64,000 bases of DNA from Amphirosellinia nigrospora. Taxonomy: Eukaryota; Ascomycota; Sordariomycetes; Xylariales; Xylariaceae. Positions 17,414 through 59,230 of the stretch are shown here, one piece after another. Positions within the stretch are counted from its first letter, which is position 1, and each line of letters opens with the position of its first letter. The stretch spans positions 1,116,001 to 1,180,000 of the forward strand of contig SCHM01000007.1 in NCBI GenBank assembly GCA_004123355.1, in the 5' to 3' direction. The position numbers were made by a program, and so were the translations under genes. The notes under the pieces were generated by a model, which was not told the origin of the DNA, made no database searches, and worked only from the letters and a program-made list of their open reading frames with translations.

Positions 17414-18269
17414 ATTTTAAATTATAATAATAAATTTTTGAAATTTTTTTTTGAATATTTATATTAAAAAATTAATATATTTATTGTATAACTAGTGAAC
17501 TATTTTAATTAATATACCTAATATTATTTTAGGATTAGTTATACAGCTAAAATAATATTCATTAAAACGAAACGCTAAATTAATAAAATATGCATTTATT
17601 CTTAATATATACTAATCTAAAAACGTTTTTATTTTATAAGATTTTCAAACAATATAAAAAACGAAAAAATAAAAATAATTAATGCTTTATAAGCTTTATA
17701 TTCAATATTAAATTAGTAAAATATTTAATAAAATAATATAAATAATATTTAATAAAATAATATAAATAATATTTAATAAAATAATTTATTTTATAGCTTA
17801 AATAAATAATTTAAAATATAAAAATTTTTTTTAATAAAACATTTAAACTTGAAATATATAAAAATTATTAAATAATTTTATTAAAATATTATATAAATAT
17901 TATTTATAAAAAATATTCGAACAAATATATTTATTTAAAACTAATAAACTAAACCTATTTTTATTTATAAATAAGTTTAAATTATTAAATAATAAACTAT
18001 AAATAAAGTTAGTAATATAATATATTAGTTAACTAAGTTTAATATTAGCTAAAAAGAATTAAATAAATATATAAAACGTTCGAACAAAAAAACAAACTTT
18101 TTATAGCTATAAATTATAATCTAAAATTGAAATTTTAGTTTTTATTTATTAAAAAAAAAGCTAAAATTAAGACTTAAATAAAAAAGCTACTTAAATTTAC
18201 GTTATAAATTCAAAAAATTTATATATTAAAAAATTTAAATACATCAAAAGTTATAAAAACAATAAAAAG
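17414..18269. repeat. AT-rich RIP tract with short tandem repeat
   Basis: At about 17,715-17,785 a 22-23-base unit, ATATTTAATAAAATAATATA, is repeated three times head to tail. The rest is featureless AT-rich sequence. Confidence 0.55.
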
Positions 18270-18562
18270 AGTTACGCTTCACACACTCGAAGAGACAAGG
18301 CTCCAGCATATGTGGTATATTGCATATAAAATCTACAGATAAAGTAGGAAGGAAGGAAGGTCTAAGTCTACGTTACAGGCAGCTGCTTAAATACTCGCGG
18401 GGCAGCTGCATTCACTGCCAGTGCTTGCTTTCATTCACTGCACTGCATTCACTACGAATGGCAGTCACGCATTCACTGCGAGTGGCAGTTACTGCAAGTA
18501 GACATTACGGGTGCTGTGGCTAGTGGTGGGGCACAGCCACCAGAGCCTGCAGATCCGTAACT
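18270..18562 (+). mobile_element. AGTTACG-ended element, short form (293 bp)
   Basis: Starts AGTTACGCTTCACACAC and ends GCAGATCCGTAACT, giving short inverted ends AGTTACG(C/G). The flanking duplication is AAAAG (18,265-69 and 18,563-67). It holds a TATA-like word (CATATAAAATCTACAGA) and an array of CATTCACTGC words at 18,410-18,490. A longer relative is at 27,457-28,050 and an end fragment is near 55,630. A 67-codon frame inside is not a convincing gene. Confidence 0.8.
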
Positions 18563-19796
18563 AAAAGTTATAAAATTTTATTAAAACTATTTATATTAAA
18601 AAATAGTTGTTTATAAACGAAAAAAAAATAAAAAACCTATATTATTTTTAAAACAATTTATATATAAATTTAAATAAATTTAAATATTTAAAAAAAAAAG
18701 CGAAAAAGCGCGCTAGTACTTATTCAAAACTAGCTAAGCCGTTAGCTTAATAATAGCTATTAATAGCTAGCAAAGCTAACTATAGCTAAATATATTTAAA
18801 TAGGATAAATCAATATTACTTACTGTTAATATAACAATATAATTTTTTTGGTTTTTGTTCGTTTAAAATAAATAGTTTTTTTTTTAAATAACTAAGATAT
18901 CGGCGTTAAAAAAAAAATTCTATATGATTTTCTAAAAACATTTTTAAAAAAACACTTTTTATTTATAAAATATATAATAATAACTAATAAACTTATATTA
19001 TTTATATTAGTTTTATTTAAATAAAAATGAACCTATATTTATCAATAAATATAAACTCTATCATATAAATTATAAAATATTCAAACTTAAAAAAAAAAGT
19101 TTTAGCGTAATATATTATTAAATCTAATAAAAAGCAATTTAAACTATAAACTTAGCTTTCCGATTATATTTTTAAAATTACAAATATATTATATTTAATA
19201 CATTATTTTTAATACTAAATATAACCATAATATAATTATTAGAAAAAAGGGTTTTAATTATAGCTTTTTATAAACTCAAAAGATTATTATGTAACAATAT
19301 TTGAAGCTTATTATTTTGAAATATGTATATAAGTTGATAACTATTAATAAACTAAAAAACTATTAGCGTTTTTTTTTATAACATAATAAAAAATATAGCT
19401 TAATATATATATTATTATTACTGTTCTAATGTTTTTCCTTTTATTTTTATAACCTTCAATAATATATTTTAAAATATTTAAAAGGTTTCTCGTAATAATT
19501 TTACGGTTTATTTTAAAATTAAAACGAATAATAATATTTCTATTATTTTATTAAATATAAATATCGACTTTAAATATAAAAAACGATTATTAAAAAAATT
19601 TATATTATTAAAGTCGATGTAGCTTAATTATTTATTTTATTTAAATAGCTATATAAAATTGTTAGTATATAGAATTTAAATAATAGAATAATTTATTTTA
19701 TAATTAAAGTAAAATAGCATAATATAAATATATGTATTTAATTAACTATATATTATATATATATAAATATATTAGTTTTTAATATACATCGAATTA
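18563..19796. repeat. AT-rich RIP tract with R4 patch
   Basis: About 18,640-18,810 matches the reverse complement of about 4,620-4,760 (AGCGCGCTAGTA, AGCTAAGCCGTTAGC). No gene seen. Confidence 0.5.
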
Positions 19797-19990
19797 AATA
19801 TTTTATTAATATTCGTAAATGCTTGAGTTTTATGAAGGAGGTACGACTGAGTGAAAGGAAGGTTTTCTTGTCGATAAAAAATTTTTTGTCTCTTATATCC
19901 TAAATAGGAAATTCTTTTACCCGAATTGGGAACCCCCCTGTTTTTACCTACCATCGTATATACTCGGTCCTCGGCATTTATTCTCTATTA
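19797..19990. other. Moderate-GC island of unknown origin
   Basis: An about 190-base patch of near-normal composition in the AT-rich tract (contains GGAGGTACGACTGAGTG and GGAACCCCCCTG). I see no terminal repeats and no second copy. The 60-codon minus-strand frame across it is not convincing. It could be a captured fragment, for example organellar, or a remnant that escaped RIP. Confidence 0.35.
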
Positions 19991-20104
19991 TACGGATAAC
20001 TATAAATTTAATAAAATAATTCAAGGTTAAATACTTATATTAAAGGTAATGGTATATATATAAATAAATTATAAGGTCTTATTCCTGATTTTTTTCTTGT
20101 TATA

Positions 20105-20225
20105 AAGTTGTACTAAATCTGATTTTGTACTAAATCTGATTATTCAATAGTTATACGTTCCATTAAACCCGATTATTCAATAGTTATGCGTTGCACTAAA
20201 CGCGATTATTCAATATTATTCGTCC
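20105..20225 (+). repeat. Tandem repeat, about 37-bp unit
   Basis: Three to four diverged units of the type ACTAAA-C(C/G)CGATTATTCAATA-GTTAT-CGTT, partly degenerate at the left. It directly precedes the GC-normal island at 20,230-20,606. Confidence 0.65.
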
Positions 20226-20229
20226 AATT

Positions 20230-20606
20230 ATGTGCGTGCTTGTCAACCTATATTGAGTAACCTACGGGGCCTTCACTATTGCGGTTTGGGCTATGTAGAT
20301 CAGGTCTCAATATACTAGGTTGGTTGATTAAGTAAAGGCTAAGTCTAGTTTCTGTGGTGGGCTAAATACTTATAGCTGTGGGGTGGGGCTGGCTTGCAGT
20401 GCCCGCCAGGGCTCTGCCAGTCGCCACCCTGGAGCCACAACCCCACCTACGTGGGGTAGGTCACCTGACCACTGGCTACAGCCCACGTATATAAGGTGGG
20501 TGTGGTGGCCGCGGGCCACCACCACTACCTTTATACCACCACCAGACTTACAGATACCAATATATACACTCTCCTACCCAGGCTATTTGTGTTAGTAGTA
20601 CGCGTA
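20230..20606 (+). mobile_element. GC-normal island with TATA-like word, possible element end
   Basis: A sharply bounded region of about 375 bp in AT-rich DNA with a TATA-like box (CGTATATAAGGTGG, about 20,488) followed by CACCACCACT-rich sequence and a CT-rich stretch. The left end TGTGCGTGCTTG and the right end reversed, TACGCGTACTA, are loosely similar. I found no target duplication. It could be a solo terminal repeat or a non-autonomous element; there is no reliable reading frame. Confidence 0.4.
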
Positions 20607-21034
20607 AAAAGAGCTTTTTTACGCAAAAATAAAAAAAAATATTAAGCTACTATAGCTATTTAAGTAGATTTTTTATATTTAAAAAAAATAACTTATCTAG
20701 TTTATAACTAAAAACTAAAATATATAATAACATAAATATATTAATTAAACTAATTAGTTTAATATTATTTTAAATATTAATATTATTTTTATATAATAAT
20801 TAACGTGATTCTATAATTAATCGATTTTTAAAAAGCTTAATTAATATATTTTAACTATTTTAAATTATTAATTTAGTTATTTGTTTAATAAATATCAAGT
20901 AAACAAAGTTAATAAAAATTATAGCTAATTTAAAAATTAAAATACTAAAATATTAGTATTTATTTAATAAAATAATTAACTAATAAATTAACGCTTAATA
21001 ATAATTAAAAAATATTAATAATTTTAAATTATAT
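20607..21034. repeat. AT-rich RIP tract
   Basis: No gene or structured element seen. Confidence 0.5.
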
Positions 21035-21195
21035 TGGTAAAGGATACCTTGGGTAATGTGTGAAAGTCATGATAAATCTACGTAGTGGAGTGAATACACA
21101 CAATGGTCAATGGGCCATTGTGTGTTATATACCCACCCATAGGGTGGGGTGGGTCCCATGACTCATAGCGCTCCATGCCCCACTGTGTCATATAT
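21035..21195. mobile_element. Hairpin-rich GC-normal island (about 160 bp)
   Basis: Contains two strong inverted repeats: ACACACAATGG ... CCATTGTGTGT (about 21,098-21,126) and ACCCACCC ... GGGTGGGT (about 21,132-21,154). Its borders are abrupt against AT-rich DNA. No second copy and no clean target duplication were found, so the element call is an inference from structure. Confidence 0.4.
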
Positions 21196-21961
21196 AAAAC
21201 TAAAAATATAAAAAATAAAAAATATAATGAAATTAGTAAAAAACTTAAAAAAACTTTAAAATTGAAAAAACTTTAAAAAAAATTATAAAATAAACTATTA
21301 ATTATAAATAAAAAATAAAACTTATAAAAATAAGTTTAATTATATTAGTAATTTAAAAAAGTTAAGTAAATTAAATAAAAATTTAAATTTAATTAATTTA
21401 ATCGATTTAACTAATAAAGCTAAAATAGATAATTTAATTATAAAAATAATTAGCTAGTATTTAATTAATTAAACGATTAAAAAATATTAAACTTTTTAAA
21501 TAAAATAGCAAAAAAAAAAAATAAGTTTTTTAAAAAGTTTAAATCGATCGATTTTTTTAAAAAAAAACCTAAAGCGTAATTTTATTAAAAAAAATCCAAA
21601 AATAAAAAAAAACAAAAATTATTTTTATTTTTATTTTAATTTTAAATTTATTAAACTTATTATTATTTTTATTATTAAGTTTAAATATTATTTATTATAA
21701 AAAACTTTAAAAAAAGTTTTTATTTGTAAAGAAACTAAATTAAAATAATATAAATTTAAACTAAAGTTTAATAAAAAAAGTATTTAAAAAAAATTAAACT
21801 AGTTAATATATTAAAATAATTTATATTTTATTATAAAATCTATTAAATATACTTTCAAAAACTTTATTAGTTTATATAATAAACTAATATTAATATCAAT
21901 AATTGTTAATATATTGAAACTAGTTTTTTTAACGTTAATTAAAAATATTAAAAGAAAATTA
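21196..21961. repeat. AT-rich RIP tract
   Basis: No gene or structured element seen. Confidence 0.5.
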
Positions 21962-22133
21962 TGTGATGGGTTGTAGTCATGTGACTGGGGAACATGCTGT
22001 GAATTAAAATACGTAGGGAAGAAAGAAAGAAGCAGCTTGGTAGCAGCGAACCAACGGCTATATATACACGAATTGACTGGCACCCTTGGTCCTAGACTTC
22101 AGGGATATAGGTCTCACGACCTAGCCCGTAACA
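21962..22133 (+). mobile_element. TGTxA-ended short element, 172 bp, TSD AATTA
   Basis: Starts TGTGATGGGTTG and ends TAGCCCGTAACA, so the ends fit TGT(G/T)A(T/C)GGG. The 5-bp flank AATTA is present on both sides (21,957-61 and 22,134-38). It carries a purine-rich GAAGAAAGAAAGAAG stretch and a TATATATACACG word. It is GC-normal inside the RIP desert. Confidence 0.7.
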
Positions 22134-22610
22134 AATTATATATATTTAAAATTTTTAATAAAATTTATAATATAATAAGCCAACTATATTAAAAAAGCAT
22201 ATGAAATAATATTAATATAAATATAAATAAAAAAAGTCCTATATTTTTATATTCGAATTTTTTAAAAATATAACATAACATAAAAAACTAAAAAATAAAT
22301 AAATATAAACTAATAAATTATAATATTTAGAGCTATCATAAAAAACATAATGTAATATATATTATTATTAAAATTCTAAAATATAAAAAATATTATATTT
22401 AAAATTGAATTAATAATTTTAATAATAATTTTAAAACTATATAAAAAAAGGCGAATTAAAAAACTCTAAAAGAAATCTAGCAATAATATTAGTTAAAAAA
22501 AATTTTTAATTAAAAAAAAAGTTTAAATATTTTAAATATTGCTAATAAAGTTATATTATTAACAATTGTTTTGATAAAAATAATAATAATTAAAACTAAA
22601 ACTTCAAACG
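22134..22610. repeat. AT-rich RIP tract
   Basis: No gene or structured element seen. Confidence 0.5.
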
Positions 22611-22832
22611 TGATATGGTGAAGTATGGGTAGAATTTGTATATTGAAAAGAGATGGAGACGAAGTCTCCAGATCTATGGGAATTCTACAGGTCTAGATAA
22701 TATTTGTGTGTGCAGGTGTGTGTGTGTGGCGAAGCCACACGCACAGACCAGGCGCCAGCCACGCTGTGGCTGGTGCGCGCCCGCCAGGGCGAGTGTGTGC
22801 GCGTACGCGCACACCCTTGCCCGCGCGTATCA
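22611..22832. mobile_element. GT-rich hairpin element with short inverted ends
   Basis: Starts TGATATGG and ends GCGTATCA; the bases AACG flank it on both sides. The interior is full of hairpins: GAGACGAAGTCTC, TGTGTGGCGAAGCCACACG and GTGTGTGCGCGTACGCGCAC. The 71-codon frame through it is a by-product of the repeats. Probably a small non-autonomous element. Confidence 0.5.
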
Positions 22833-23676
22833 AACGATTAAAAAACCATGATATTTATAATAAACTTATTAAAAATTAAAAACTATTTATAAGTTTTAAA
22901 AATAATTTTAGTTATTTTATTTATATAAATATAAATATTTTATTAAGTTTAATAAATTTTTATAACTATAAAATATTAACTTCTTTTTTTCTTTTTTAGT
23001 TTATGATATTTTATTTTAAATAACTATAATACTATAAATTATAGTTTTAACTACTATAAACTTCTTTATAAAAAAACTATAATAAACTTTTTTATAATAA
23101 AAAAACTATTATAAACATATTTATTATAGTTAGCTCATTTATGAATAAAAAAATAATAGACTGTTTTATTGAATAAAAACTAATTTTAGTAATAATAAAT
23201 TTATAAATAATTTAAAGTCGATTATTTAGGATAATTTAAAACTAATTTTATATTTAACTAAAAAAACCAAAAATATATAGTTTATATAAATAATAAACTT
23301 CTATAAATTTAAAAAATTAATATTATTATAAAATTTTTAAAAATTTTCATAAAATATATATAATAGAAAATAAATAAAAAATACTATGAAAATATATTTA
23401 TAATAAATAAATAAATAATTAATATTTTAAATATTTTAATTTAATAAAAACTATTAAAAAATACTACGTTTTATATATAAATAAAAACAAAAAGTTCGGT
23501 ATAAAAAATTAAAAAATATTTTTATTTATAAACTAATATTAAAATAATATAATTAAAAAATTAATAAATTTTATTTAAAATAAATTAAAGCTTTATTTTT
23601 ATAAACTAAATTATTAATTATATATATTTTTAATAAAATTAATTAATTTATAATAAAAATTTTAATTTTAGCTAAA
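22833..23676. repeat. AT-rich RIP tract with R3 copy 2; right edge of the desert
   Basis: About 23,130-23,675 is a shortened copy of 8,400-9,905. At about 23,677 the composition changes within a few bases to normal GC, marking the border of the RIP desert. Confidence 0.6.
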
Positions 23677-24172
23677 TGTCACAGCCCCATTCTTTTGACC
23701 CACTTTTACCATTCTGGGGCTGTGGCTGCAATGTGGCTGCCCCACAGGGAATGTGTGGCAGTGGCAGTACTGGGCTAGGGCGGTGTGTGGCGGCAGGACT
23801 GGGCGGTGTGGGGCACATACCCACAGATACTTATTGCCACCTGCAGGTCAATGTACTAGTACTTCCTTTCTGTCACGTATTTGTGGATACGATCTAGCAT
23901 AGGAAGTGAACCAGTGCACTCTCCAGAGGGGCTCAAGTAAAGTGTATTCAGATGATCTAAAGTAGAAGTTCTATATACTTGGGATAAGTGTGTCAAGATC
24001 CAATATATAGTAAACGATCACTCGGACTATAGTTAGGGCGAGCCCCAGTCCCTAGAGCTCACCATAGACCCACTTATCCGTGACACTTTCTTTCTTCCAT
24101 AAGTAGAATATTAGCTTCCAATATAGGGTAAATTAGGTGTCTGAACCTTCTGCCTGTGTTGCATCCATCACA
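23677..24172 (+). mobile_element. TCACAGCCCC element, copy 1, split by a nested insertion
   Basis: Starts TCACAGCCCCATTC and ends GCATCCATCACA. A second copy is at 43,044-43,329. The left part is rich in GGCTGTGGCTG-like words. Without the nested 215-bp insertion the length is about 275 bp. Its own target duplication could not be fixed. No open frame of note. Confidence 0.65.
23871..24085 (+). mobile_element. TGTCACG-ended short element, 215 bp, TSD CTTTC
   Basis: Starts TGTCACGTATTTGTGG and ends CCACTTATCCGTGACA; 13 of the first 16 bases of the two ends match when one is reversed. CTTTC flanks it on both sides. The second copy of the host repeat (around 43,250) lacks it, giving an empty site. 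A sister copy is at 35,501-35,723. TGT...ACA ends with a 5-bp duplication would also fit a solo LTR of a small LTR element, so I leave MITE versus solo LTR open. Confidence 0.85.
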
Positions 24173-24173
24173 T

Positions 24174-24310
24174 AGTGACGCAGGGGGTTGTCATAGCCTA
24201 TAGCACTGCGGGCTGTAGCTGTGGACTATATACAGTAGCTTAGTAACCAAAGCTGCCACCTTAGTTATTCTGATCCCTTTTGGCAGATGACCCAACTGGT
24301 TAGGTGTGCG
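24174..24310 (+). mobile_element. Relative of the 10,875-11,031 element
   Basis: Starts AGTGACGCAGGGGG. Its right part carries GACTATATACAGTAG, CCACCTTAGTTATTC and CCCTTTTGG, all matched in the element at 10,875-11,031, and it ends GGTTAGGTGTG. It abuts the preceding repeat directly. End points are approximate. Confidence 0.45.
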
Positions 24311-24371
24311 CGCCCGGCAGATCTAGCAGGCTACTCTAGATTTCGTCCTGTTACAAACACCCACTTCTCCC

Positions 24372-25127
24372 TCGAACCTTCTTTCTCTATCAGCAACCTT
24401 ATTTTCAACCTTCAAAAGGAAACCGGAGTTAATATTTTTGCGACTTCGAGATTTATACTCGAAATCGAAGACCAATTTCGAGGAGATTTGTTGATAGAGA
24501 TCCGTGCAACTAAAGATAACATCAATAGATATCTGCAAGGACATGTATCCGAACTTCCTAAGATTGTTACCAGTCAACCTGAGCTTCAAAATGAGATTAC
24601 GACAAGCATATTAGAAGCCGTTGATGGCATATATGTATACTCTAAGAACAATATAGATCATGCTAAATTGCTTAGGTCTTTTCTTGCGCAACTTTATTTG
24701 ACTCATTGATTGGCAAAGATACACCAAAAGCTATACGGAAAGCGCTACAAAAGCTTGCAACTGGATCAAATGCCTATGGCACTTCATATGAGTACGCCAT
24801 GGAATAGATCGGCGGACAAGTTTAACAGCAGGTACAACGCGCGAAGCAAGTTCTATCGTGAATAACTTGTGCGAAAAGGCCACTGACAAAAGTAGAACTC
24901 CAACATGACTTGTAGTAAAATCGATGAGCTAGAACTTAATCAAGACAATCTCCCACAGATCGAAGACGTGGTTTCTGTATGCGCTGGACTAGTAACGGTT
25001 GATGAAGAAAGCAGTATTGCTCGACTAGTCCACTATACCACACAAGACTATTTCACACACACCCAGAGTAAATGGTTTCCGGACGCACAGCTTTCTATTA
25101 CAGCAGTCTGTTGTCGCGTAGAAGTGG
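24372..25127 (+). pseudogene. NACHT-ankyrin type NLR, broken fragment
   Basis: Fungal NLR-like proteins of this kind have a NACHT NTPase followed by a helical region and ankyrin repeats, and act in self/non-self recognition. What survives is the C-terminal part of the NACHT module and the helical region: NIFATSRFILEIEDQF, IRATKDNINRYLQGH, ELQNEITTSILEAVDG, then in another frame DTPKAIRKALQKLATG and YEYAMERIGG-like sequence, and at 24,905-25,110 LNQDNLPQIEDVVSVCAG and VHYTTQDYF. The P-loop part and the ankyrin repeats are missing. A piece at about 24,626-24,682 begins GCATATG and ends TTAG, like a decayed or GC-AG intron. At least one frameshift and several stops follow, so it is not functional. 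Match to the family is from memory of its typical wording. Confidence 0.75.
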
Positions 25128-25135
25128 ATACATAT

Positions 25136-25165
25136 ACCGTTAATACTCTCTCGGAGTATTAACGG
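25136..25165. repeat. Perfect hairpin, 12-base arms
   Basis: CCGTTAATACTC and GAGTATTAACGG are exact inverted partners separated by about five bases, right where the NLR similarity stops. It could mark a small insertion or a deletion junction. Confidence 0.6.
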
Positions 25166-25582
25166 CGTCGTTTTTATCCCGTGAGATAAATGCATTGACA
25201 AAGTGAACTTTGGCGTTTGAAATTTCAAACGTTGAGTAAGCCCACTATAGCCCATTAAAAAATTAGAGACCGTGAGTACGTAGGTACTTGTGGCTGTTCT
25301 ATTGTTACTCTGGCTCTACGACAAATTACGACTATTGAAACTTATAGTGCAGTGCGGGAAATCAAGAACTTAGGTTTTTCTCTATTTGCTAGGTACCTGC
25401 AGAACTAACAAAAACACCGAAAACATATAATACAAGATGATGTCGTATAGACATCTTCTAGGAGACAGTGTCTTGAAGACAGTGTCACCTTTTTTGTCGA
25501 CTGATAGGACTCCCGAGGGTCCCCTCAAGACATGGTCTCAATCAATGTAAACCTATTCGGTCTGGTAATCTGCTAACCTTTT
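25166..25582. other. Intergenic, no gene seen
   Basis: Contains a perfect 18-base palindrome CGTTTGAAATTTCAAACG (about 25,211-25,228) and a near-duplicated AGACAGTGTC word (about 25,463 and 25,477). Otherwise nothing recognisable. Confidence 0.5.
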
Positions 25583-27456: not shown

Positions 27457-28050
27457 AGTTACGCTTCACACACTCGAAGAGACAAGGCTCCAGCATAGTG
27501 GTATATTGCATATGAAATCTACAGATAAAGTAGGAAGGAAGGAAGGTCTAAGTCTACGTTACAAGTGTGCCTGCTGGTTCCTACCTAGTGGTGATCCGTG
27601 GCTTAGTCAATTACTGATGTAAGCTGCAGATCTGGTACTAGGTATGGTGTTGTATTGTGGACAAAGGGTTTCGGTGCCCTGTGTCCTGTGGCTATGTATT
27701 TATACACCTAATTACAGTGGGGCAAGTCATGGTGCAAAGACCTGTCAGAATTAACCACTAGACCAAATAACCAAAAGATTGGCTGCAGTACTGCTTATTT
27801 GATTGATTCCAATTAACTGTATATATCTAACAAGACCTGCTTGCCGGGCAACCATTCACTGTGGCGCCCATTACCTGGGTGCCACACAGGTGCCACACAA
27901 GCAGCTGCTTAAATACTCGCGTGCAGTGGGGCAGGTGCATTCACTGCGAGTGCCTGCCTTCATTCACTGCAAGTGGCAGTTACTGCAAGTGGAGATTACG
28001 GGTGCTGTGGCTAGTGGGGCACAGCCACCAGAGCCTGCAGATCCGTAACT
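27457..28050 (+). mobile_element. AGTTACG-ended element, long form (594 bp), TSD ACATA
   Basis: Starts AGTTACGCTTCACACAC and ends GCAGATCCGTAACT, like 18,270-18,562, with perfect flanks ACATA (27,452-56 and 28,051-55). Its first about 115 and last about 150 bases match the short form. The middle about 325 bases (27,572-27,897) are absent from the short form, so either this copy gained a segment or the other lost one. It is nested inside the TA-flanked element. Confidence 0.8.
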
Positions 28051-31759: not shown

Positions 31760-31933
31760 TGTCACGGAGATCTGCAGGGGTTAAAAAGCCATATATTGTG
31801 TGTGTGGGCGCAGAGCAGTCTGACTGCCCTGTGCCCTCTATATACAACCTAACCTCCGAAGATCCACCATATGGGTCTATATACCCCTTGGGAATAGCTT
31901 CATCTAGGGGGCAGTATCCACTTTACCGTGATA
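31760..31933 (+). mobile_element. TGTCACGG-ended short element, 174 bp, TSD ACAAT
   Basis: Starts TGTCACGGAGATCTGCAGG and ends CCACTTTACCGTGA-A. ACAAT is on both sides (31,755-59 and 31,934-38). The same family is at 58,892-59,035, which lacks a middle segment present here. A word GGTCTATATACCCC lies near the centre-right. MITE or small solo LTR. Confidence 0.8.
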
Positions 31934-35500: not shown

Positions 35501-35723
35501 TGTCACGTATTTATGGATACGATCTAGCATAGGAAGAGAACCAGTGCACTCTCCAGAGGGGCTCAAGTAAAATGTATTCAGATGATCTCAAATAGAAGTT
35601 CTATATACGTGGGATAAGTGTGTCATGATCCTATATATACCTAACAGGTAAGTGATCATTCGGACTATAGTTAGGGCGAGCCCCAGTCCCTGGGGCTCAC
35701 CGTAGACTCACTTATCCGTGACA
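35501..35723 (+). mobile_element. TGTCACG-ended short element, 223 bp, TSD CTTGC
   Basis: A close copy of 23,871-24,085: starts TGTCACGTATTTATGG and ends ACTTATCCGTGACA, with perfect flanks CTTGC (35,496-35,500 and 35,724-28). Confidence 0.85.
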
Positions 35724-36791: not shown

Positions 36792-39250
36792 CTAAAGGAT
36801 GATAGGATTGGCTATGTCATCAGCGTATCCAAAACGCCTTTTCGTGTCTGCTTGGAGGATTTCCGTCATGTACAGTAGAAAGAGGACAGGGGAGGTGGGT
36901 GACCCTTGTGGGAGGCTGCACTCTAGTGGGAAGGTTCTGTAGTGTGGTCCTCTAGTCTGATCCTCGCTGCGCGCCCAATGAGGAAGGACCGGGTGAAATT
37001 GATCATGGGTGGCGGCCATCCCTGCTGGGTCATTCGTAGGAGTAGCCTCGGGCAGCACTGCGTCGAAAACGCCCTGAACGTCGTTGTGACTAAGTGGCTA
37101 CTTGGCCGCTCTCTAGAGCGTGTTCAATATCGTGTGTCATGCACGCGAGCAGGCCTACGGCCGACCTTTTTGGTAGGGCGCGGCCTGCTGTGGGCTAAGG
37201 ACTTTGTGAACTAGCGATGTCCGGGTTATCCTCCTGGCAAAGAGTCTTTCGAGGCCCTTACCGAGGCAGGAGAGGAGTGAGATAGGTCGCCCTAACTTAA
37301 CGTCTGTGCATCTTTCTTGTTGGGCTTTCGTAGCATAACAATCTCCGCGGTCTTGTATATCCTCGGGAAGTGTCCTGTCCTTAGACACCCCGTGAAGGGG
37401 CTCCGTACATGTTCTTTGATATGTTCCCAGCTTAGCTTGATCAGCTTGACGGAACAGGCGTCGATACCCGGGCAGTGTTCTTGGGCTTTATCGTCGCCGC
37501 CTCTACTTCTTCCATTGAGATATAAGGGTCCCAGGGCAGGTAATCCCTCAGGACCGTCGGTACATCTGTGGGTTCATAGTCGAGGTCGTCTTCCGCTGAG
37601 AAGCGGCCTAGAAGCGCCCTGCGTAGAGCTTGTGCCATGTCCGCAACGTACTCTACCACGAGGCCGTCCACGTTCAGTGGGGTGTTTTCAGATCGGGTTG
37701 CAGTTTGCGCCAACTCATGATCTTGTACATGTCCTGGTCCGATTTGGCCTCGTCGATAAGGAATTGCCAGTAGTTTCTCTTCGCTCTTCTGGCCACTGCC
37801 CTAAAGGCATGTGCTTCTTCGCGGCAGAAGCGTCCCAGGGTCCTCTGGGCGTTCCTGTACGTCCCTAGTGCCTCTGCGCACTCTCCGTTCCACCAGACTG
37901 CATTGTATCCTGTGTTCCGGTTCTCTTTGCCGGCAGCCGCTGGGGCATTGTTTAGCAGGTCTGCTGGCTTCTGCGCCAGCTTGTCGAGTTCGTCCGCCAG
38001 GGAGTGTTCTAATTGTGGGTAGGGCCGGAGTGCCCATTGCAATAGTTTCTTTGAGGTGTGGTTCCTTTAGGTATGGTATCGTCATCTTAAATTGGTCTGG
38101 GGGCGTGTCCTCTCTCGTGGGTAGGACTGTCAAGATTGCTGCGTGGTCGGTCTCGTAGTGTAGCGCGTCATATACTTTCGCCGTAGCAAATGGGATGTTG
38201 GAGAAGGTTATGTCTAATACATTTCCGTCCTGGTGTGTCGGTACCCCGACTTCGCCTATGTAGGCTAGCTTGTGCGTATTCGCCCACCGGAGGATGTCTT
38301 TGCTACCGTTCAGGTGGCCGACGACTCCGGGCTGCTAGACAACGCTTTTGGCGTTCACGTCTCCAGCTATCATGCACTTTGGGTGGGTTGTATCCGGTAA
38401 GGATACGTGTGGTGTCTGAGCCGTCTAGCTCCCTGGGTTGTCTGTAGACGTTCACCGTCATGATGCCATTTACCGACACCCATGTTATGCCCCTTGTGGG
38501 TTTCAGTCTATTCTGTTTGGCCTGCAGCGTGGGGATTTCCTCACGTATGTCATGGCCCTAGGTTTGTCCTCTCCGGTTTCCCAGTTGTCTAGTGGTACAT
38601 ATGGTGTATATCGCGGATGGTTTACTTAGCTTGTTCTCCCCATTCCTTCCGCACCAGGGTTCCTGGATTGGGGCAACGTCGATCTTGTTCTTGTCGCACA
38701 GTTGTAGGAATATGCTAACTGCTTCGGCAGCTCTGGCGCAGTTAGTCTGCGCCACCCAGAGAGTGGCCGGTTGGCCATGCTCTCGGCGACGCCGGTGGCG
38801 TCTATTGGGCCTGCTGGCGTTCTGAATATGCGGCTGTGAGGTCATCAAAGGCGTGGGCGTATGTGTAGTCGGGGTTCGTTAGGCTCCGCCTTGGGCGACT
38901 AGTCACTTGAACCGATGTATCACTGTCTCTCGAGCTGTTCGACGTCTCAAAGTCCATGTCGTCTGTCTGGCTTTCGTCACCGGCCTTTTGGGTGCCATTG
39001 GCGTTCTTCGTTCTGACGGCTAGCCTTTTCCCTTTGCGGGAAGCGGTATTGGACTGCATGCCGGGCCTCGTGCTCGGCTGCAGGCTAGTGTCCTGTGTGG
39101 GTTTTAGGGTGGGGGATGGCGAGGTCTCAGGGCCTGAGGGTTGTCCGGCTGTCCCGTGTGTTGCGATGATCGTGTCCAGCGCCTGGTAGATGTCGTTGTC
39201 GTGCTTTGTTCCGGCATGACTGGTGTCGAGGGGGAGGGGGTATCTTGGAA
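36792..39250 (-). mobile_element. Tad1-type LINE, degraded, 3' part missing
   Basis: A non-LTR retrotransposon on the minus strand. From high to low coordinate: an ORF1-like Ser/Thr-rich region (about 39,240-38,802; DDMDFETSNSSRDSDTS); an apurinic-type endonuclease starting TNCARAAEAVSIFLQLC and IDVAPIQEPWCG (about 38,750-38,650), with GDVNAKSVV and YETDHAAIL (about 38,370-38,140); the linker WWNGECAEALGTYRNAQR (about 37,900); and reverse transcriptase blocks RPISLLSCLGKGLERLF (about 37,250), LPQGSPTSPVLFLLYM and FGYADDIA (about 36,830). Right after the YADD block the similarity ends, so the rest of RT and any RNase H are absent. ORF1 zinc knuckles are also not seen, and ORF1 runs almost straight into the endonuclease, which suggests an internal deletion. 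Stops (for example after GDVNAKSVV) and frameshifts show it is dead. Plus-strand frames such as 37,317-37,868 are antisense shadows. Confidence 0.85.
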
Positions 39251-51870: not shown

Positions 51871-52426
51871 CAAAGGAGGCACGCTAGGATAAATCAAAGA
51901 CGGAGGGCAATCGCAGCCTCAACGTAGCACATGCTTCGAGACGTCTACGTGCACGCTGCAAAGGAACATAGGTAGGTACCCACACATAGTTAGCAAGGGC
52001 CTGGTACCTAAGGTACCTTATCTTACCTAAGTAAGTACCTACTTGTTTCCCAGGCTCCTTCTTCACCTTGCAACCCACGAGGTCAAACTTTACTACGCAA
52101 AACGCCCTCCACGCCCAGTTCGCGATCTTCTTCTTCAACCCAATTTGAGATTTACATGCAGCTGTCGCCTTGGGTGTCTACGGTATCTACTGTATCAGTC
52201 GGGCGCACAGCAGCTGTTGTCACTGGAACACAACGCCGCGACCTGCCGCGATTGCTTATACATTTCATCTCCCGCTGGAGCTGCGCTTCATTTGATCACA
52301 CTTCATTTTCTCATTTACGCCTCTTGTACGCATATTCCCAGAGAGCTGGCATATAGCGCCAAATCCCAGATCTTGTACCCACTCCAGATACCATACGAAC
52401 GGATCCCAGTTATATATCTGCCCAAG

Positions 52427-53606
52427 ATGGCCATCAACGATGAGGTCCCCGGGCTTGAGGTCTTCGTGCGCTGCAACGGGCAAACACTAGCAGAATACGA
52501 AGATCCGCACGCCGACGACAATAACGACGTAGCTGCTTGTCCGATGACAACCAAGTATATTGAGTGTATCGATGATGCCGAGTTTGAGGTCACTATTCGC
52601 ATCCACTCCGACTACCAGTGGGGATATCGCAACCATGTCGTTGGTGCTGCAACTTATGTAGATGGACAGTTCATCCAGCATCCTGTCTTCCGCAACGATA
52701 AGATACGTGCTAGCGGATATGCAGAATGCCATATTCGTGGACCTGAACGATATTCTGACAGCAACGGCTCTTGGTTGCTACAGAAATTTAAGTTTGCCGC
52801 CGTGAAGACAAGTGCGTGCCCCAATCCAAGTCCCAGTCCTTCTTTATTAACCAGCGTGACAGTTGATGATACCCGAAAAGAGCGCGTGGAGAGCGAACTT
52901 GAAGTCGCAGAAAACCTTGGTACTATCGAGGTTGAATTCAAAAGAATCATCGAGGTCGGTCCCCAGCGGTGATGGCACTCGTGCTGCCAATTCAAGCTCT
53001 TTGGAACTAGCAGAAAGGTCCTTGAAAGGGAAAGAAGTTTCGCATGGCACATCGTAAGCGCTCGACGACTACCCTTTTTTTCGAGTAACAATTCAGCTTA
53101 CATCATTTAGATACGGTGCCGGCCAAGTAATCAAGGCCCCAATTTTATTAGTAGTTACGATATAGAGGAGGACAATGGCCCTATTCTCATCATTAGATTT
53201 ATTTATCGGTCTAGAGGTGTGTTTACACCCGCACATAGGCGTCACAGCCTCAACTAACAACAAAATATCACAGATGCTCTCAAGCGCGAGTTCATCATTC
53301 CACGTACCCCGTCCGTCTCGCCCAGTCTTGATGATTTGACACCCGCCGAGAGAGATCGTCTAGCCAGAGAACGACTAGACCAACTACGGGTAAGTCACGC
53401 TCTCTTGTTCGTGCATAAAATTCGTTATCTCATAACACTTGTTTTAGGAGATGAAGATCAAACAAGAGAACATAGTCCCCACGATCAAACGCGAGTTCGG
53501 CGAAATCGTTGACCTAACGACAGAGGCCCCGGCGCCTCCGGCTACAAAGAAAACACGTCTCAGCGATGGCAGACAAGTGGATGTGATAGATCTGACAGAC
53601 GATTGA
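52427..53606 (+). CDS. DUF7918 family protein, at least four exons
   Basis: DUF7918 proteins are common fungal proteins of unknown function. The start is placed at MAINDEVPGLEVFVRCNG (context CCAAGATGG); an open frame extends 128 codons further upstream but looks like leader. The beta-rich domain follows: YIECIDDAEFEVTIRIH, AATYVDGQFIQHPVF, WLLQKFKFAAV, LGTIEVEFKRI. Then, in another frame, ANSSSLELAERSLKGKEVSH (to about 53,057) and, after an intron, SSYDIEEDNGPILIIRFI. Two introns are clear: 53,217-53,273 (GTGTGT ... CTAAC ... CACAG) and 53,390-53,447 (GTAAGT ... TTTTAG). They join RSR-DALKREFIIPRTPS to LDQLR-EMKIKQENI. The protein ends VDVIDLTDD at 53,606. Near 52,950, and again around the first intron (about 53,052-53,110), the frame does not join cleanly, so the gene has either one or two frameshifts or a splice I cannot see. 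Confidence 0.65.
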
Positions 53607-54079
53607 GAGAGGCAAGTCGCCAAGTTGCAACAAGATGGTTTTATATCTCGGGATCCAGTATTTTCTGCTTTGATGTTTTCTACGTATCACTATGCTAGAA
53701 GCCGGTTTGCTATGTGTAATGACTGGTCTATGAGGCCGCCGCCGTAAGGGATAGTTTTGTTGTCTTAGATTAAGACAATACAAGTCACGCACTCTCGTAT
53801 TCTGTGGCGTAGACAAAGCCACGTGTCAGTTGGGGCGGGCGATTGACAGGGTTTGATAGACCTTGAGTAACTTTATTCATTGCCGAGATAGTGGGATATA
53901 TAATTGAAATGCGCCAGCCGTTTTTATGAGCAAACCAAGCCTCACAATAGCACGAATTGGTCTGCGCACAGTACTTGTGAGGCTCCCTCGAGGTTACTAA
54001 GCGGGCAGCCCACCTGGAGGTGAACGACTATCACGTTCGATAGATACACGTCGGTTAATTACAGGTAGGATTTACATAT
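53607..54079. other. No recognisable gene
   Basis: Downstream of the DUF7918 gene; no frame, repeat or RNA gene I can support. Confidence 0.4.
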
Positions 54080-54150
54080 TGTGACGGACAAAACGACGCC
54101 GTTGTCGCCATCTGGCTATAACGGTATATAGACTCCACATCTCCGCGACA
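54080..54150 (+). mobile_element. 71-bp element, TSD CATAT
   Basis: Starts TGTGACGGACAAAACG and ends CACATCTCCGCGACA, with CATAT on both sides (54,075-79 and 54,151-55). A copy of the same length with five differences lies at 58,779-58,849 with its own duplication. It belongs by its ends to the xGTxACG group and is the smallest member. Confidence 0.85.
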
Positions 54151-54499
54151 CATATTACTCCTAGAGATATATTATGCAAGAAGTTACTACTTTTAACTGC
54201 TACTGAACGGAAGCGAGGAGCTGCCGGAGGTTTCTATCCTTCTACATAGGCTCCGTAGTAACGTGTGTAACATTTAGCCTCGCGATTTTAGAACTCAAGA
54301 ACCCTCATTTTAGATATATAGCGGGCAATCATGTCCCATCACTTGGTGGTTATTTGACGACCGGGCATAAAGCAAATATATCTACCACCACTATGCCATT
54401 ACCGTACTTACTTACCCTTCGCCTCGTCCTCTGGCCACTCACCATGATAAATGGCTGGAAGCGTAGCCTCAGGGGAACCTAGAATGCCCTTCTAGGCCC
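54151..54499. other. No recognisable gene
   Basis: No feature supported. Confidence 0.4.
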
Positions 54500-55180
54500 T
54501 TGACTCGGAATCCAACGCAATGGAAACTGATACAAATTTCCCCAGCGGTGCCTACTATTATGGTGCCACCCGGCGGCGAAGTGTTCATTCACATTACAAA
54601 GAATTACACTCACATCACGGTGTCTGTGACAAGGGCTTGTGTCCAAGTGCTTGTAAATTGGAGTTCAATTCAACTAAGAATATCTTTGGGGTCTCTAGGG
54701 GCTCTGGTTGCCAAATTGTGACTTGAATGTAACCTCGCATATGCCGTCAATTTACAGACAAATTCTAGGACCTTGTTCTCCTCGCAGGCCTCCGCGGGTA
54801 TGACTCCTCGAGAATGCTATTCTGCCACTATGCTCATGTCTCGACCCACGATAATGATCAGAGTGAAATTGGCCTCCTAGACTCTCCAGAATTCTATGTG
54901 GTTCCTGTGGCCATGTCCTATGACTGGTCCGTGTGTCAGTGTTGACAAACACAGACTAGGTGAAGGCTGGCTCTCCACGACCGCGCCCGTGCTTCAAGGT
55001 GTACATATGCAATCCACGGATGAAGGTGTTATGATTACCGCAACAAACCCCGGCCGTCGCCCGAGAACCATGAATATCCACACGAATAGGCGAGTTCGTG
55101 TTGGTCCAGGAAAGAATTTTCAACACATGTGTCTCCCCATAATTCTATTTATTGCCCTCGCTGGTCTGTTTAACGGTTGA
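54500..55180 (+). other. Possible coding relic, unrecognised
   Basis: Overlapping plus-strand frames give coding-like pieces: SGAYYYGATRRRSVHSHY and GVCDKGLCPSACKLEFNS (54,520-54,726), and WFLWPCPMTGPCVSVDKH with GEGWLSTTAPVLQGVHMQ (54,896-55,180). They do not join in one frame and I do not recognise a family. It may be a small cysteine-containing protein gene that has decayed, or a chance open region. Confidence 0.25.
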
Positions 55181-55629
55181 CTTGTCAGATGATAGATCCT
55201 CACATGACGTAGATACAGTACGTTCAACAAGCTTACACACGATGGTAAATTATAAGTCGCAAAGGTTTACATCGACCACATTCATATGTAAGAACAAAAG
55301 TGCTAAGAAGGTTGGGGCAAGGGGAATGTTTTCATTGATGTCAGCATTTTGATTTATTTCGATTGAGTTATAAAGGTTGAAGTACCTACTGGAGACAGCC
55401 CTGAGGTTTGGGTACCTAGTAACCGATTTATGAATAAAGCCTTATCGATAGGTAAATTAAAGGTAGTATTTAGGTACTAGGTAGGTAGGTAGACAGCAGC
55501 TGCGTTTATGACCTTTCAGCCCTCATAGCTAACTCGCGCATGCACTTTCAGCACTTATCATCACACATATGTTGGATTTGTCTTATAGAACGAAATTGAA
55601 TGATATAAGTTTTCACCAGCTTCGTGCAG
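55181..55629. other. No recognisable gene
   Basis: A short direct repeat, GTAGGTAGGTAG, near 55,480; nothing else. Confidence 0.4.
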
Positions 55630-55765
55630 CTGAGGCTGGATCTGCAGGCGCTGGTGGCTGCGCCCCACCACTAGCCACAGCCACACCATGCACAGGTGGA
55701 TCTATTAACAAACTCTCTTCCTTTCAATCAAGCTTTTATTTACAACCCATAATATTCTTCTTAAA
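55630..55765 (-). mobile_element. Fragment of the AGTTACG element joined to a palindrome-flank repeat
   Basis: About 55,635-55,690 is an inverted fragment of the AGTTACG-ended element (GGATCTGCAGGC, CCCCACCACTAGCCACAG). About 55,692-55,762 matches the sequence right of the palindrome at 28,552-28,620 (GTGGATCT, TCTCTTCCTTTCAATCAAGC, TTACAACCCATA). The same two sequence families therefore meet here and in the composite element at 27,246-28,865. Confidence 0.6.
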
Positions 55766-56330
55766 GCGGTGCCTCGCCATGCAGTTCTATTGCAGACACC
55801 ATACCATACCAAAACCATCGTCTTTAGATCTCTTGAGGTCAAGAGACACCTTTCCTGTGGTGGCAATCAACGCGCGCGCCATCTACACGACTACAGCGAA
55901 GCCAAGCCCTTAGCGCCGATTCCTCTTGGACTCTTCTTACCCTTGCACCCTCGCGAAGACTCTGAGTAGGTAAGCTAGCGTTTCTTAGCCCTGAAAATCA
56001 CCTCCGTATCCTAGACGTACCCAGTCTCCAAGGCAGTTGCTGAAGTTACTGTGAAGTCGCAGACGTTGCGGATTCCCTTACTGTGAAGTTCTTGAATGCC
56101 CCAGTTCGCTGTTGACGTTCATGAATGTACCAGCTCTATTGTTGAAATTACGGTCATGATTTACACATACCCTATCCTATCCCCCCGCATAGTTCATCTT
56201 GTCCCCGATTTATTCATTTATGACGTAGCGAAAGGACGACGAATCCCAGGACAATCACGATCAAGAAGATAGCCTACCTCACGCGCCCGGGCCTGCCCGA
56301 GCACTTACCTGACCAAACACTCGACCTTCA
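55766..56330. other. No recognisable gene
   Basis: A locally repeated ACTGTGAAGT word (56,049 and 56,080) and a similar GTTGACGTTCATGAATG word; possibly the decayed 5' side of the chromovirus fossil. Confidence 0.4.
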
Positions 56331-58700
56331 TTTCAATCGTCAGCGCAGCTGTTTAAGCGACCGATACTCCCGTTGCCCAATACGTCTAGACGAAGCAAGA
56401 ACAAAGGGGTGGCAGGAGCCCCAGACTCAGCCGACACCGACCCCTTCACTGGTAGGGCTCGATCATCAACCATGAGTACAGAACCCGCGAGATCCTCGTC
56501 TGCAACGGACTGACAGCCAGGATTTAACGCAGAGACAATGAATGTAATTTTGAAGCAGCAGCAAAGCTCCGACTCTAGACGGAACAGGATCGAGCAAGGC
56601 GTAGACGACCTACAGAAAGATGTCAAAGAAATCGACGACAAGCTGGGTCGAATAGTGGAGATGAACAAGAATCTCAGTGCGTTCATAGGGTTCCAGAGAC
56701 ACCAATACACCACATCCCTGCTGGTGCCCCACTCACATCCGCGTCGGACTAGAGGGCCTTCCAGAACACACGACATCTACCTCTGGTACACCGGCCGTAG
56801 TCGTGACGGGCGCGACTGGAGCGTCATCACTCATGTCCCCGCCCCCGCCCAACCGGTCTACGGACAAGGAAGATGCGGGGAATACAGGCGTACGAACATC
56901 AATCGAGGAGGAAGGAAACAACATGGGAGATGGCAACAACGCACCGCCGGGTGGCCCCGACGATCCAGGTTCATCAGGCGGCGACGACGGCGGCGACGGT
57001 CGTAGCCATGGCATGGGCCGACTTCATGAGGACAGTGGAGTTCTGAACCCCGAAGATAGAGGACTCGTCGCCGACGGTAAGGGCATTATCTATACGGATG
57101 CGCACATGTTCACTTGACGCATCCAAGCTATGTGTGAGCTCGAAGATACCGAGGCGTCAAACAATAGCCAGGTCCTTGCGCTGTTCGATCATCTTCTCTC
57201 AGGCTCCGCCCTCCTATGGTGGAACGATGAGGCCAAGCCATCCGATCGCCGCATTTAGCGAAGAGCAGGCCTCAGCTCAATCCCCGAGAAGCTAGAAGAG
57301 CGATTCAAGATGCGCTCCAGGTACGCCACAAAGAAATTCTTCGAAGACACCTACAACATCACACGAAACAAGAATGCACTTACCCAGTTCGTCCGACGCA
57401 AGTTGTGATACGCCCGTGGAAATGGAATCTTGAAACGGCACAACTCCAATTGGCAAGGTGTCATGGAAAACATCCGCGACCGGTGGGTCGAATTTATCGT
57501 CGACCATATCCGCCTACCAAAGACCAAGGATACCCTAGACAAGTACATGGAGAAAATCGACGAAGCACGTCACGGATTAGAGCGGAAGGCAGAGCCGCGA
57601 TTCCCTAACGCTCGACCTCTTCGCGACTACCCAAAGGACAGTCGTTCGTCACGACCCAAGCGCGACGAGCGCGACTATTCCCATCGCAGTCGCCGATCAG
57701 GTAACGAATACCGACCCCGTCGAGGACATCGAAGTCAGTACTACTATGCCGATTGCAGTAGGCGACGTGGCGAATATCGTGAAAAGGAACGTAGCTACGA
57801 TAAAGAAGGTGACTCAAAGAGCAACAAGGAAGGTGACAATAAACAGGATAAGAAACGCGATAGTAGTTGTGATGGCAGCTGCGACCGTAGCCGCGACTAT
57901 GGCAATGATCACCTACGACAAGACGCCAAGTTGGCCATGGACTTCGCCACAGCTGAGGCAAAACGGCACTATGACAGTAAGCACCGATCACTGGAATTCT
58001 CCCCAGGCGACAAGGTTCTCCTCCGCCTACATGATGGCTATCACCTACCCGGTGACCCCTCAGGAAGTACTCCCAGCAACGTGTTGGACCCTGGGTTGTC
58101 AAGCGCAAGGTTGCCGATTTAGCCTACCAAATATCCTCGATCACTACCGTATACACCCCGTCATTTCTGTCGCCCAGTTGCGACCGTGCAAGAGTGACGA
58201 GGACCCTTTCAAGCGAACGGTACCACCACAAGGGTCTGTCGAAGCCGACTAGCACTCCGACGATGATACAGATGCAGATGGTGACGTCTACGAAGTGGAA
58301 GTCGTACTTAAGCATCGTCCCAGCCGAAAGAAGGACAACTTCGACTATCTGATCAAGTGGAAAGGATGGGGTCATGAACACAATCGCTGGCACTCGGCAC
58401 ACCACCTCCGTCACTCACAGGATCTCTTTGACGCGTACTGGGCCAGACACGGTCCCTGCCCGGCACTGCCAAAGAAGGTATCTACGAAGACGGAGAAAGC
58501 CTCTAAAGTGGCGGAAGCACCTGTTTGACGCCATCGTGGGAGATCTCGCAAGGGCTCCGGCAGCTGTTACACCCGCTGAAGTTTAAGCCACTACACCTGC
58601 ACCTGCACCCGTGTTGCCTCCTGTGTCCTCCGTGCCTCTGAGTGAGTCACCTGCCGAGCTTCCCTCGCGGCGAAGTTCTAGATTACAAAAACCTGTGAGT
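56330..58700 (+). mobile_element. Ty3/gypsy chromovirus fossil (gag and chromodomain parts)
   Basis: Plus-strand parts in order: a coiled-coil-like N-terminal Gag stretch (about 56,540-56,690), a Gly/Asp-rich linker (about 56,900-57,000), the conserved Gag helical part (FDHLLSGSALLWWNDE, KLEERFKMRSRYATKKFFED, about 57,180-57,350; then NWQGVMENIRDRWVEFIV), an Arg/Ser/Tyr-rich stretch (57,600-57,900), a C-terminal integrase part (RSLEFSPGDKVLLRLHDG, HPVISVAQLRPCKSD) and a chromodomain (VYEVEVVLKHRPSRKKDN, YLIKWKGWGHEHNRWH; 58,285-58,460). Chromodomains of this clade direct insertion to heterochromatin. I do not recognise protease, reverse transcriptase or RNase H, and no LTR pair was found. The copy is broken in several places and is an old non-autonomous derivative. 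Confidence 0.8.
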
Positions 58701-58778
58701 GATGTGGTGGGCTTTATTTCTTTTTAATATTAATATTTAGTACAGCCTCAAATTATTTAACACGCTTTATCTAAAATA

Positions 58779-58849
58779 TGTGACGAACAAAACGACGCCG
58801 ATGTCGCCATTTGGCTACAACGGTATATAGACTCCACATCTCCGCAACA
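58779..58849 (+). mobile_element. 71-bp element, second copy, TSD AAATA
   Basis: Same 71-bp layout as 54,080-54,150, five bases different, with AAATA on both sides (58,774-78 and 58,850-54). It lies in a short AT-rich patch just after the chromovirus fossil. Confidence 0.85.
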
Positions 58850-58891
58850 AAATAACATTTTTTTAATTTACCTTACATTGAAATGTTTTGA

Positions 58892-59035
58892 TGTCACGGA
58901 GATCTGCAGGGGTAAAAAAACCATATATTGTGTGTACGCGATCACGTGACCTAACCTCCAAAGATCCCCCATACGGGTCTATATACCCCTTGGGAATAGC
59001 TTCATCTAGGGGGCAGTATCCACTTTACCGTGACA
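58892..59035 (+). mobile_element. TGTCACGG-ended short element, 144 bp, TSD TTTGA
   Basis: Starts TGTCACGGAGATCTGCAGG and ends CCACTTTACCGTGACA, with TTTGA on both sides (58,887-91 and 59,036-40). The same family as 31,760-31,933, about 30 bases shorter in the middle. Only 42 bases separate it from the 71-bp element. Confidence 0.85.
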
Positions 59036-59230
59036 TTTGATATATTCGTTGTTGAGGCAGTTAGGTGAGTTTTGGCGTAAGTGATGTGGATATGGCGTGA
59101 CCTTTGGGGGCAATCAAACCTGGCACATACTAGGAGTATTATGCCGTTGGTCATATTGCCATTCAATAGGAGCTTGACTAGTGTAATGACAGCCATGTTT
59201 GGTTACAGAACACCTAAATTCCCTCAATGA

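Follow-up and report, generated by a model that had tools for sequence, protein, structure and literature searches.

Short elements with xGTxACG-type ends are scattered over a stretch of the genome of the fungus Amphirosellinia nigrospora (contig SCHM01000007.1, our C9, positions 1116001-1180000; this whole stretch of 64,000 nucleotides is referred to as the window). They are, with high probability, solo long terminal repeats (LTRs) of several LTR retrotransposon families and not DNA transposons. The group is real and well supported, and is mostly ordinary in kind: solo LTRs in a genome subject to repeat-induced point mutation (RIP). An earlier note, made from the letters of the window, had listed nine intervals with such ends, each flanked by an exact 5-bp direct repeat. 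All nine were verified by printing the intervals with their flanks (Table 1); the copy at 31760 has an end reading CGTGATA. As that note had suggested, several families follow one end rule, and by sequence the nine intervals formed five: A (18270, 27457), B (21962), C (23871, 35501), D (31760, 58892) and E (54080, 58779). Its reading of the ends as those of solo LTRs was borne out for A, C and E, together with a further family, E2, and is likely to hold for B and D. It had also recognised no autonomous partner in the window, where indeed only solo or fragmentary LTRs of these families were recognised.

Each family was searched for in the whole genome (G000; 48.1 Mb in 11 contigs). At least 90 pieces of family A were listed (40 of 155 candidates scored), with 28 places matching the head of the LTR, as were at least 41 matches of C (40 of 59 candidates scored), at least 42 of D (40 of 52), 34 of E and 7 of B. 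Target-site duplications (TSDs) were tabulated for a subset of matches, mostly the best ones, keeping those that came within 4 bases of both ends and dropping fragments. Loci L001-L008 were excluded as duplicates of the window or of L080-L086, the full-length A element was scored once through its outer flanks, and copies joined to interior sequence (e.g. L018, L088 and L010) were retained and scored as misses. The 5-bp rule recurred genome-wide. Exact duplications were found in 19 of 27 copies of A, 2 of 2 of B, 17 of 23 of C, 11 of 23 of D and 10 of 18 of E, rising to 20, 2, 20, 17 and 15, respectively, when one mismatch was allowed. When left and right flanks were re-paired at random 1,000 times, the mean count of exact duplications stayed below one in each family (A 0.98, B 0.95, C 0.77, D 0.49, E 0.55; maxima 5, 2, 5, 3 and 4), the control being uninformative for the two copies of B. 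Exact 5-bp duplications also flanked 17 of the 21 E2 copies tested.

The 296-bp family A sequence, with AG...CT ends, is an LTR belonging to a Ty3/gypsy chromovirus. A longer relative with the same ends and an open integrase frame, which the earlier note had named as support, was reached by genome-wide Pfam searches for rve and RVT_1 at C4:4985500-4995400 (L049). This element of 6,848 bp has two A LTRs (2695-2990 and 9247-9542 of the locus) with zero differences over 296 bp, and its outer flanks, TAAAT and TAAAT, form a 5-bp TSD. Its coding strand is opposite to the orientation given in the earlier note, and in coding sense the LTR begins AGTTACGGATCTGCAGG and finishes GAAGCGTAACT. A frame of 527 aa occupies the gag position, with a HeLo match below cut-off and no match to a Pfam gag model. 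The pol region lies in two overlapping open frames, which may reflect a programmed shift, an intron or damage: one of 654 aa with RVT_1 and one of 811 aa with RT_RNaseH, Integrase_H2C2, rve and Chromo, all above Pfam cut-offs, and with a second zinc-finger model below cut-off. Reverse transcriptase, RNase H, H2C2 and rve thus stand in chromovirus order, followed by a C-terminal chromodomain. The best sequence match of the protein among solved structures was Ty3 Gag-Pol (E 5e-60), and a scan of IMG/VR with the family A pol gave no match. A polypurine tract (PPT), GAGGGGGGT, directly abuts the 3′ LTR.

The earlier note had thought that the AGTTACG ends looked more like the terminal inverted repeat (TIR) of a DNA transposon, which proved wrong. 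Since identical direct repeats surround an interior with reverse transcriptase, integrase and chromodomain, and one TSD lies outside both, the suspected TIR is an integrase recognition end. A match of 13 out of 16 terminal bases, cited in favour of a TIR, is present (by eye) in family C but not in A, whose inverted terminal match is 7 bp.

After the 5′ LTR the L049 sequence begins ATCTACAGAT, the first 10 nt of which are complementary to LTR positions 226-235. A complement of this length was reached by 35 of 20,000 Markov-resampled A LTRs, other families tested reached 4-6 nt, and the motif was present in 23 of 26 A LTR copies. In pol order, C-terminal chromodomain, PPT and this possible self-priming site beside the 5′ LTR, A resembles the Sushi/Tf1 chromoviruses (Ty3/gypsy, Metaviridae), Tf1 being a self-priming element. 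The complement is as self-priming predicts, and reverse transcription of A may start by this mechanism, which has been described (PMC2864245).

The ends of A depart from the TG...CA usual, if not strictly defining, for Ty3/gypsy chromoviruses. AGTTACG...CGTAACT was found in 21 of 27 copies, the remaining six having 1-3 changes, and TG...CA in none. Compared with TGTTACG...CGTAACA, the outermost base pair alone differs at both ends, so that the joined 3′ ends are CT and not CA. The CA-3′ dinucleotide has been called invariant for retroviral integrases (PMC6784120), and the reason for TG...CA conservation in LTR retrotransposons has been called poorly understood (PMC5659011). The A integrase was aligned to those of Ty3 and foamy virus with HMMER, ungapped through the catalytic loop. 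It keeps the D, D, E triad, and its loop is GHHETVGQAEI, where Ty3 has NHPQTDGQSER and foamy virus YHPQSSGKVER. Relative to Ty3, Pro is replaced by His, Gln by Glu, Asp by Val and Arg by Ile; His and Glu thus stand at foamy-virus Pro214 and Gln215, and Ile follows the catalytic Glu where both other proteins have Arg. In foamy virus, Pro214-Gly218 are reported to intrude between the strands and to stack against the terminal adenine (PMC6784120), and the Rous sarcoma virus equivalent of Gln215 to lie on the guanine opposite the penultimate cytosine (PMC7955051).

A second copy of the A integrase (L055) is identical at 394 of 414 residues (95%) and has the same loop. The two copies differ at 122 bases, 97 of them transitions, with Ka 0.022, Ks 0.489 and a ratio of 0.045. 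This low ratio and the shared loop argue that the protein has been selected for function (purifying selection). By position in the alignment, the loop changes may be tied to the CT-3′ ends. Against such a link, neither an A LTR nor any repeat of at least 60 bp was found in the 9.9 kb examined at L055, only one full-length A element was found, and a gypsy element with TG...CA ends (L052) also departs from HPQTDG, reading RPRGNGKVEK. It is conceivable, although on balance somewhat doubtful, that A represents an integrase lineage re-specified from CA-3′ to CT-3′ under purifying selection and independently of the insect errantiviruses. The AG...CT chromovirus with an altered integrase loop is, in any case, an unusual variant of an otherwise ordinary retrotransposon. 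In the portions of the open-licence literature searched, no report of AG...CT ends in a fungal LTR retrotransposon or chromovirus was found, which is weak evidence of absence as most subscription papers and Repbase lay outside that search. A has CT-3′ ends on both sides, identical LTRs and an integrase frame that is open, and TG...CA families occur in the same genome; it thus offers a natural experiment on the integrase residues that read the last base pair.

Insect errantiviruses of the Zam clade lack a chromodomain and have a 4-bp TSD and an env gene. Unlike them, A has a chromodomain, a 5-bp TSD and about 217 bp between the pol frame and the 3′ LTR, which is too little for env. Its ends resemble theirs (AGTTAYRK...TAAYT; PMC3601003), AGTTACGG fitting the 5′ motif and ...TAACT the 3′ motif, and this looks like convergence, not membership. 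Sushi ends are given as TGTYANR...CNTNACA (PMC3601003), in contrast to those of A. Terminal dinucleotides can change, as plant LTR elements with non-TG/CA ends demonstrate (Tos17 TG-GA, TARE1 TA-CA, TGTT, AACA; PMC5659011), but none of these is AG...CT.

The elements to which the family C LTR belongs are 7 kb long, have a half-tRNA primer site and are best read as Ty1/copia. At three loci (L009, L010 and L011), C copies in the same orientation, some 7 kb from each other, form two-LTR elements with a GC content of 0.22-0.25. Compared with the solo copy at 23871, their six LTRs differ by 36-48 C>T/G>A changes, 0-1 T>C/A>G changes and 1-2 transversions; the corresponding numbers for six C solo copies are 0-5, 2-7 and 1-5. 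Since the LTRs of the long copies differ almost solely by RIP-type change, the long copies belong to family C. Beside the mutated LTRs stands TATTTTTTAGTTTTAAAG in L009 and L011 and TACTTTTTAGTTTTAAAG in L010; an unmutated counterpart, CACCCCCAGTTTTGAGG, comes after the C LTR at L018:837-1051. This LTR adjoins a PPT, CACCCCCAG, and 1.8 kb further inward, on the matching strand, lies a frame with RVT_2, the Ty1/copia reverse transcriptase. On the other side, the primer-site sequence GAACCGG.CT.ATAA., the same as in E2, was found beside C LTRs in L009, L010, L011 and L088. In both features C resembles the Ty1/copia elements with half-tRNA primers (Drosophila copia, Ty5). A copia element with two C LTRs and a readable pol was not found in the genome; the two-LTR copies found are mutated by RIP.

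The locus L088 (C9:931272-931829) is a mixed element. It consists of an E LTR, a PPT, 274 bp of interior, a primer site and a C LTR, so that its end LTRs differ, and it has no TSD. It is possibly a product of template switching or recombination. Its interior had no other match in the genome save for the 45-bp primer-site end, in two places.

Searches of the genome with this interior, and then with L113:6270-6680, uncovered family E2. The E LTR is 71 bp long; that of E2 is 73 bp and reads TCTCACG...CGCGACA, starting with TC in 18 of 21 copies and with TG in one. In coding sense its ends are TG...GA, like those of Tos17 (PMC5659011). E2 is the LTR of a miniature element, a terminal-repeat retrotransposon in miniature (TRIM) of 371 bp dependent on borrowed proteins. 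The complete two-LTR copy, at C7:158866-159236, has the features by which TRIMs are recognised: a length under 500 bp, two LTRs, a primer site, a PPT and a TSD (ATCCC). A copy of 339 bp on C4 retains both outer ends and AATAG but has lost 32 bp that cover the primer site and the beginning of one LTR. When 200 bp of interior are compared with L113, the C4 copy shows 23 differences, 21 of them RIP-type and 2 others, whereas the C7 copy differs by 4. The primer site, GTTATGAGCCCGG, directly beside the LTR, agrees over 13 nt with the anticodon arm of the tRNA-Met(CAT) predicted at L116, which suggests half-tRNA priming of the copia kind, as with Drosophila copia and Ty5. Such priming has been reported for fungal TRIMs (PMC10886601). 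Helenus, a fungal TRIM/SMART (small LTR retrotransposon), has a tRNA-like sequence within its LTR; ARAGORN detected no tRNA at the E2-bearing loci L109 and L110 or at the E-bearing L088, which gives no ground for placing E2, with its 73-bp LTRs, in Helenus. The PPT ...CTGGGGGTG is common to E, E2 and C. For E itself the PPT side alone was seen, in one copy (L088), and paired repeats were not found.

Two candidates for longer E or copia elements were rejected. A pair of E copies 1.4 kb apart (C7:756895/758352) is not one element, as each has its own exact TSD (TCAAC and AACGC). L113 is not a long copia copy: the adjoining DNA is AT-rich (GC 0.11 overall) with no frames over 150 aa, and the locus holds the short E2 element only. 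Beside that element lies a member of a further short repeat family: this stretch of some 71 bp (L113:6270-6340, C6) is found again at about ten other sites. The tRNA-Met(CAT)-like sequence occurs in two copies on C4 (L116 and L117), of which ARAGORN predicted one as a tRNA and not the other, which has a changed 3′ end.

Families B and D are likely to be LTRs of the same general kind. Several of the 7 B matches are AT-rich and diverged, and one same-strand pair lies 1.4 kb apart in AT-rich DNA (C10, L021; a 291-bp repeat, 73.5%). D resembles C near its ends (by eye). Among the at least 42 D matches listed there was no same-strand pair within 15 kb, and no D interior was found in the genome matches. 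One D copy lacks a TSD, with CACCCC beside it and an Argonaute gene adjoining. L066/L112 was considered as a long D copy and rejected, the adjoining frames being pieces of the Argonaute gene. These pieces (ArgoN, ArgoL1, PAZ below cut-off and Piwi) lie at L112:1085-4470 on the minus strand, about 1 kb from the D copy.

Because A is the LTR of a gypsy chromovirus and C is best read as a copia-type LTR, the xGTxACG end rule seems common to two superfamilies, Ty3/gypsy and Ty1/copia. We suggest that it reflects similar integrase end preferences in both and not common descent. A single ancestral element behind A, C, D and E would agree with their shared ends and TSD length, and ACGG..ATCTGCAGG occurs near one end of both A and D (by eye). 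Descent from one ancestor is nevertheless very improbable: RVT_1 and a chromodomain are found in A whereas a half-tRNA primer site and RVT_2 go with C, the families have different interiors and primer sites, and similar end motifs are reported from more than one clade of Metaviridae (that of Sushi, given above, and rGmr1 TGTNANR...CGTNACA; PMC3601003).

RIP-type changes were concentrated in long copies (those of C and one near-complete E2 copy), and the short solo copies tested had none or hardly any. The solos thus preserve end sequences that RIP has blurred elsewhere. However, some A solos carry RIP-type changes (19 C>T/G>A in L029 and 30 in L035), and shortness is therefore not full protection. 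The flanks, taken up to 300 bp, had a median GC of 0.15 for A, 0.12 for B (n=2), 0.46 for C, 0.43 for D and 0.45 for E, and A differed from C, D and E with p about 1e-6 each (Mann-Whitney). The placement of A in AT-rich DNA may come about through its chromodomain binding heterochromatin on DNA mutated by RIP, but it could also be a survival bias in gene-poor DNA.

The origin of the solos is best explained as follows. The integrase of an LTR retrotransposon joined both cDNA ends to a staggered cut, giving the 5-bp duplication, and most insertions subsequently lost all but one LTR, probably by recombination between LTRs before RIP; TRIMs were presumably mobilised by copia proteins. Several observations weigh against this account or against the family assignments beneath it. 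Only one full-length A element was found, and with its pol in two frames it may not be autonomous. The RVT_2 frame and the primer site were seen at different C copies and never together, and L088 demonstrates that mixed structures occur, which matters where C is assigned from separate copies. A parent is proven for neither B nor D; that D is an LTR is judged only from its ends, its TSDs and its resemblance to C, and about half of the copies tested lack an exact TSD. E is linked to TRIMs through one copy beside a PPT (L088) and through E2. Repeats of 71-73 bp are poor substrates for recombination, and single copies of these LTRs far outnumber two-LTR copies, an excess that recombination does not readily explain.

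This excess is what would be expected if the units moved as LTR-only molecules, with the DNA of one LTR produced by reverse transcription integrating directly, so that a unit of 71-296 bp was never longer at its site. No two-LTR copy of E was apparent from the coordinates of the 34 matches listed, the close pair having separate TSDs, and for E2 the matches with interior numbered 3 clear and 2 partial ones, compared with 26 to a single LTR. Likewise, among the matches listed no two-LTR copy of C is as close as the most similar solos (97-99%), while L018 and L088 (95-96%) keep a one-sided interior. Yet such a molecule has no direct evidence, recombination between LTRs leaves the same footprint, and RIP makes long copies harder to find and so inflates the ratio of single to two-LTR copies. 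It would also be sterically demanding for one intasome to hold both ends of a DNA of 73 bp, and we regard LTR-only movement as unlikely. It is very improbable that the AGTTACG family, or perhaps others, are small non-autonomous DNA transposons (miniature inverted-repeat transposable elements, MITEs) with TIRs and 5-bp TSDs. Short inverted ends, exact duplications and many short copies beside few long ones suit MITEs, and Ginger 1 DNA transposons are reported to combine TIRs beginning TGTNR with a related integrase (PMC3601003). For A this is refuted by the structure of L049 and sits badly with an inverted match of only 7 bp; moreover, PPT and primer site stand in the correct order next to the LTRs of A, C and E2. 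We thus retain solo LTRs of several retrotransposon families as the explanation. Where a genome is subject to RIP, a family whose long copies are AT-rich debris can still have its ends preserved, with little mutation, in short solo LTRs. Tools demanding TG...CA ends or readable interiors may miss such LTRs or file them as MITEs, as nearly happened here.

Table 1. Repeats recognised in the window, in order of position
Feature	Position	Strand	TSD	Remarks
Family A solo LTR	18270..18562	-	AAAAG	AGTTACG...CGTAACT; strand is coding sense inferred from L049
LTR of second gypsy family	20231..20439	-	no 5-bp TSD	TGTGGCT...GCACA; long copies L050-L054
Family B solo LTR-like element	21962..22133		AATTA	TGTGATG...CGTAACA
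Family C solo LTR	23871..24085	-	CTTTC	Ty1/copia type
Family E2 solo LTR	25112..25186	+	not intact	TCTCACG...CGCGACA on minus strand (TG...GA in coding sense)
Family A solo LTR	27457..28050	-	ACATA	broken by nested repeat
Nested repeat	27566..27897		CAAG (4 bp)	TGTGCC...GGTGCCACA; outside the 5-bp group
87-bp insertion within nested repeat	27745..27831		AAGACCTG (8 bp; 27737-27744, 27832-27839)	hAT-MITE-like by TSD length only
Family D solo LTR-like element	31760..31933		ACAAT	C-like near ends (by eye)
Family C solo LTR	35501..35723	-	CTTGC	
Family E solo LTR	54080..54150	-	CATAT	71 bp
Family E solo LTR	58779..58849	-	AAATA	71 bp
Family D solo LTR-like element	58892..59035		TTTGA	

The interval 27457-28050 has the ends and the duplication that the earlier note gave it but is not a single element, being an A LTR with a nested repeat and, within that, the 87-bp insertion. 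The nested repeat belongs to another short family, which has TG...CA ends and differs in the length of its TSD; a 4-bp TSD was also found in 5 of 6 other copies tested, and one copy lies near the first tRNA-Met(CAT) copy (L116). Two LTRs had been missed by the earlier note: the E2 copy, whose flanking duplication is mismatched at 3 of 5 positions, and the gypsy LTR at 20231, which adjoins a PPT-like sequence (by eye). Next to the former, window positions 24862-25111 are related to L018:4675-4926 (78% identical), and each of these unassigned pieces directly adjoins an E or E2 LTR.

Positions 1-24000 of the window are an AT-rich block in which no frame reaches 110 aa and which has many inverted self-copies, as expected of repeats degraded by RIP. 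At 36813-37289 on the minus strand lies a degraded reverse-transcriptase piece, LINE-like by eye, with an RVT_1 match (C9:1152813-1153289) interrupted by 4 internal stops. The second gypsy family is represented by five long copies on C1 and C4 (L050-L054) with equal reverse transcriptase match scores and 211-bp TGTGGCT...GCACA LTRs. In L052 and L053 its pol is uninterrupted, as one open frame (1,012-1,075 aa); in L050 and L051 it is split. Two of the copies on C4 lie 8.2 kb apart, beside a copy that is 78% alike.

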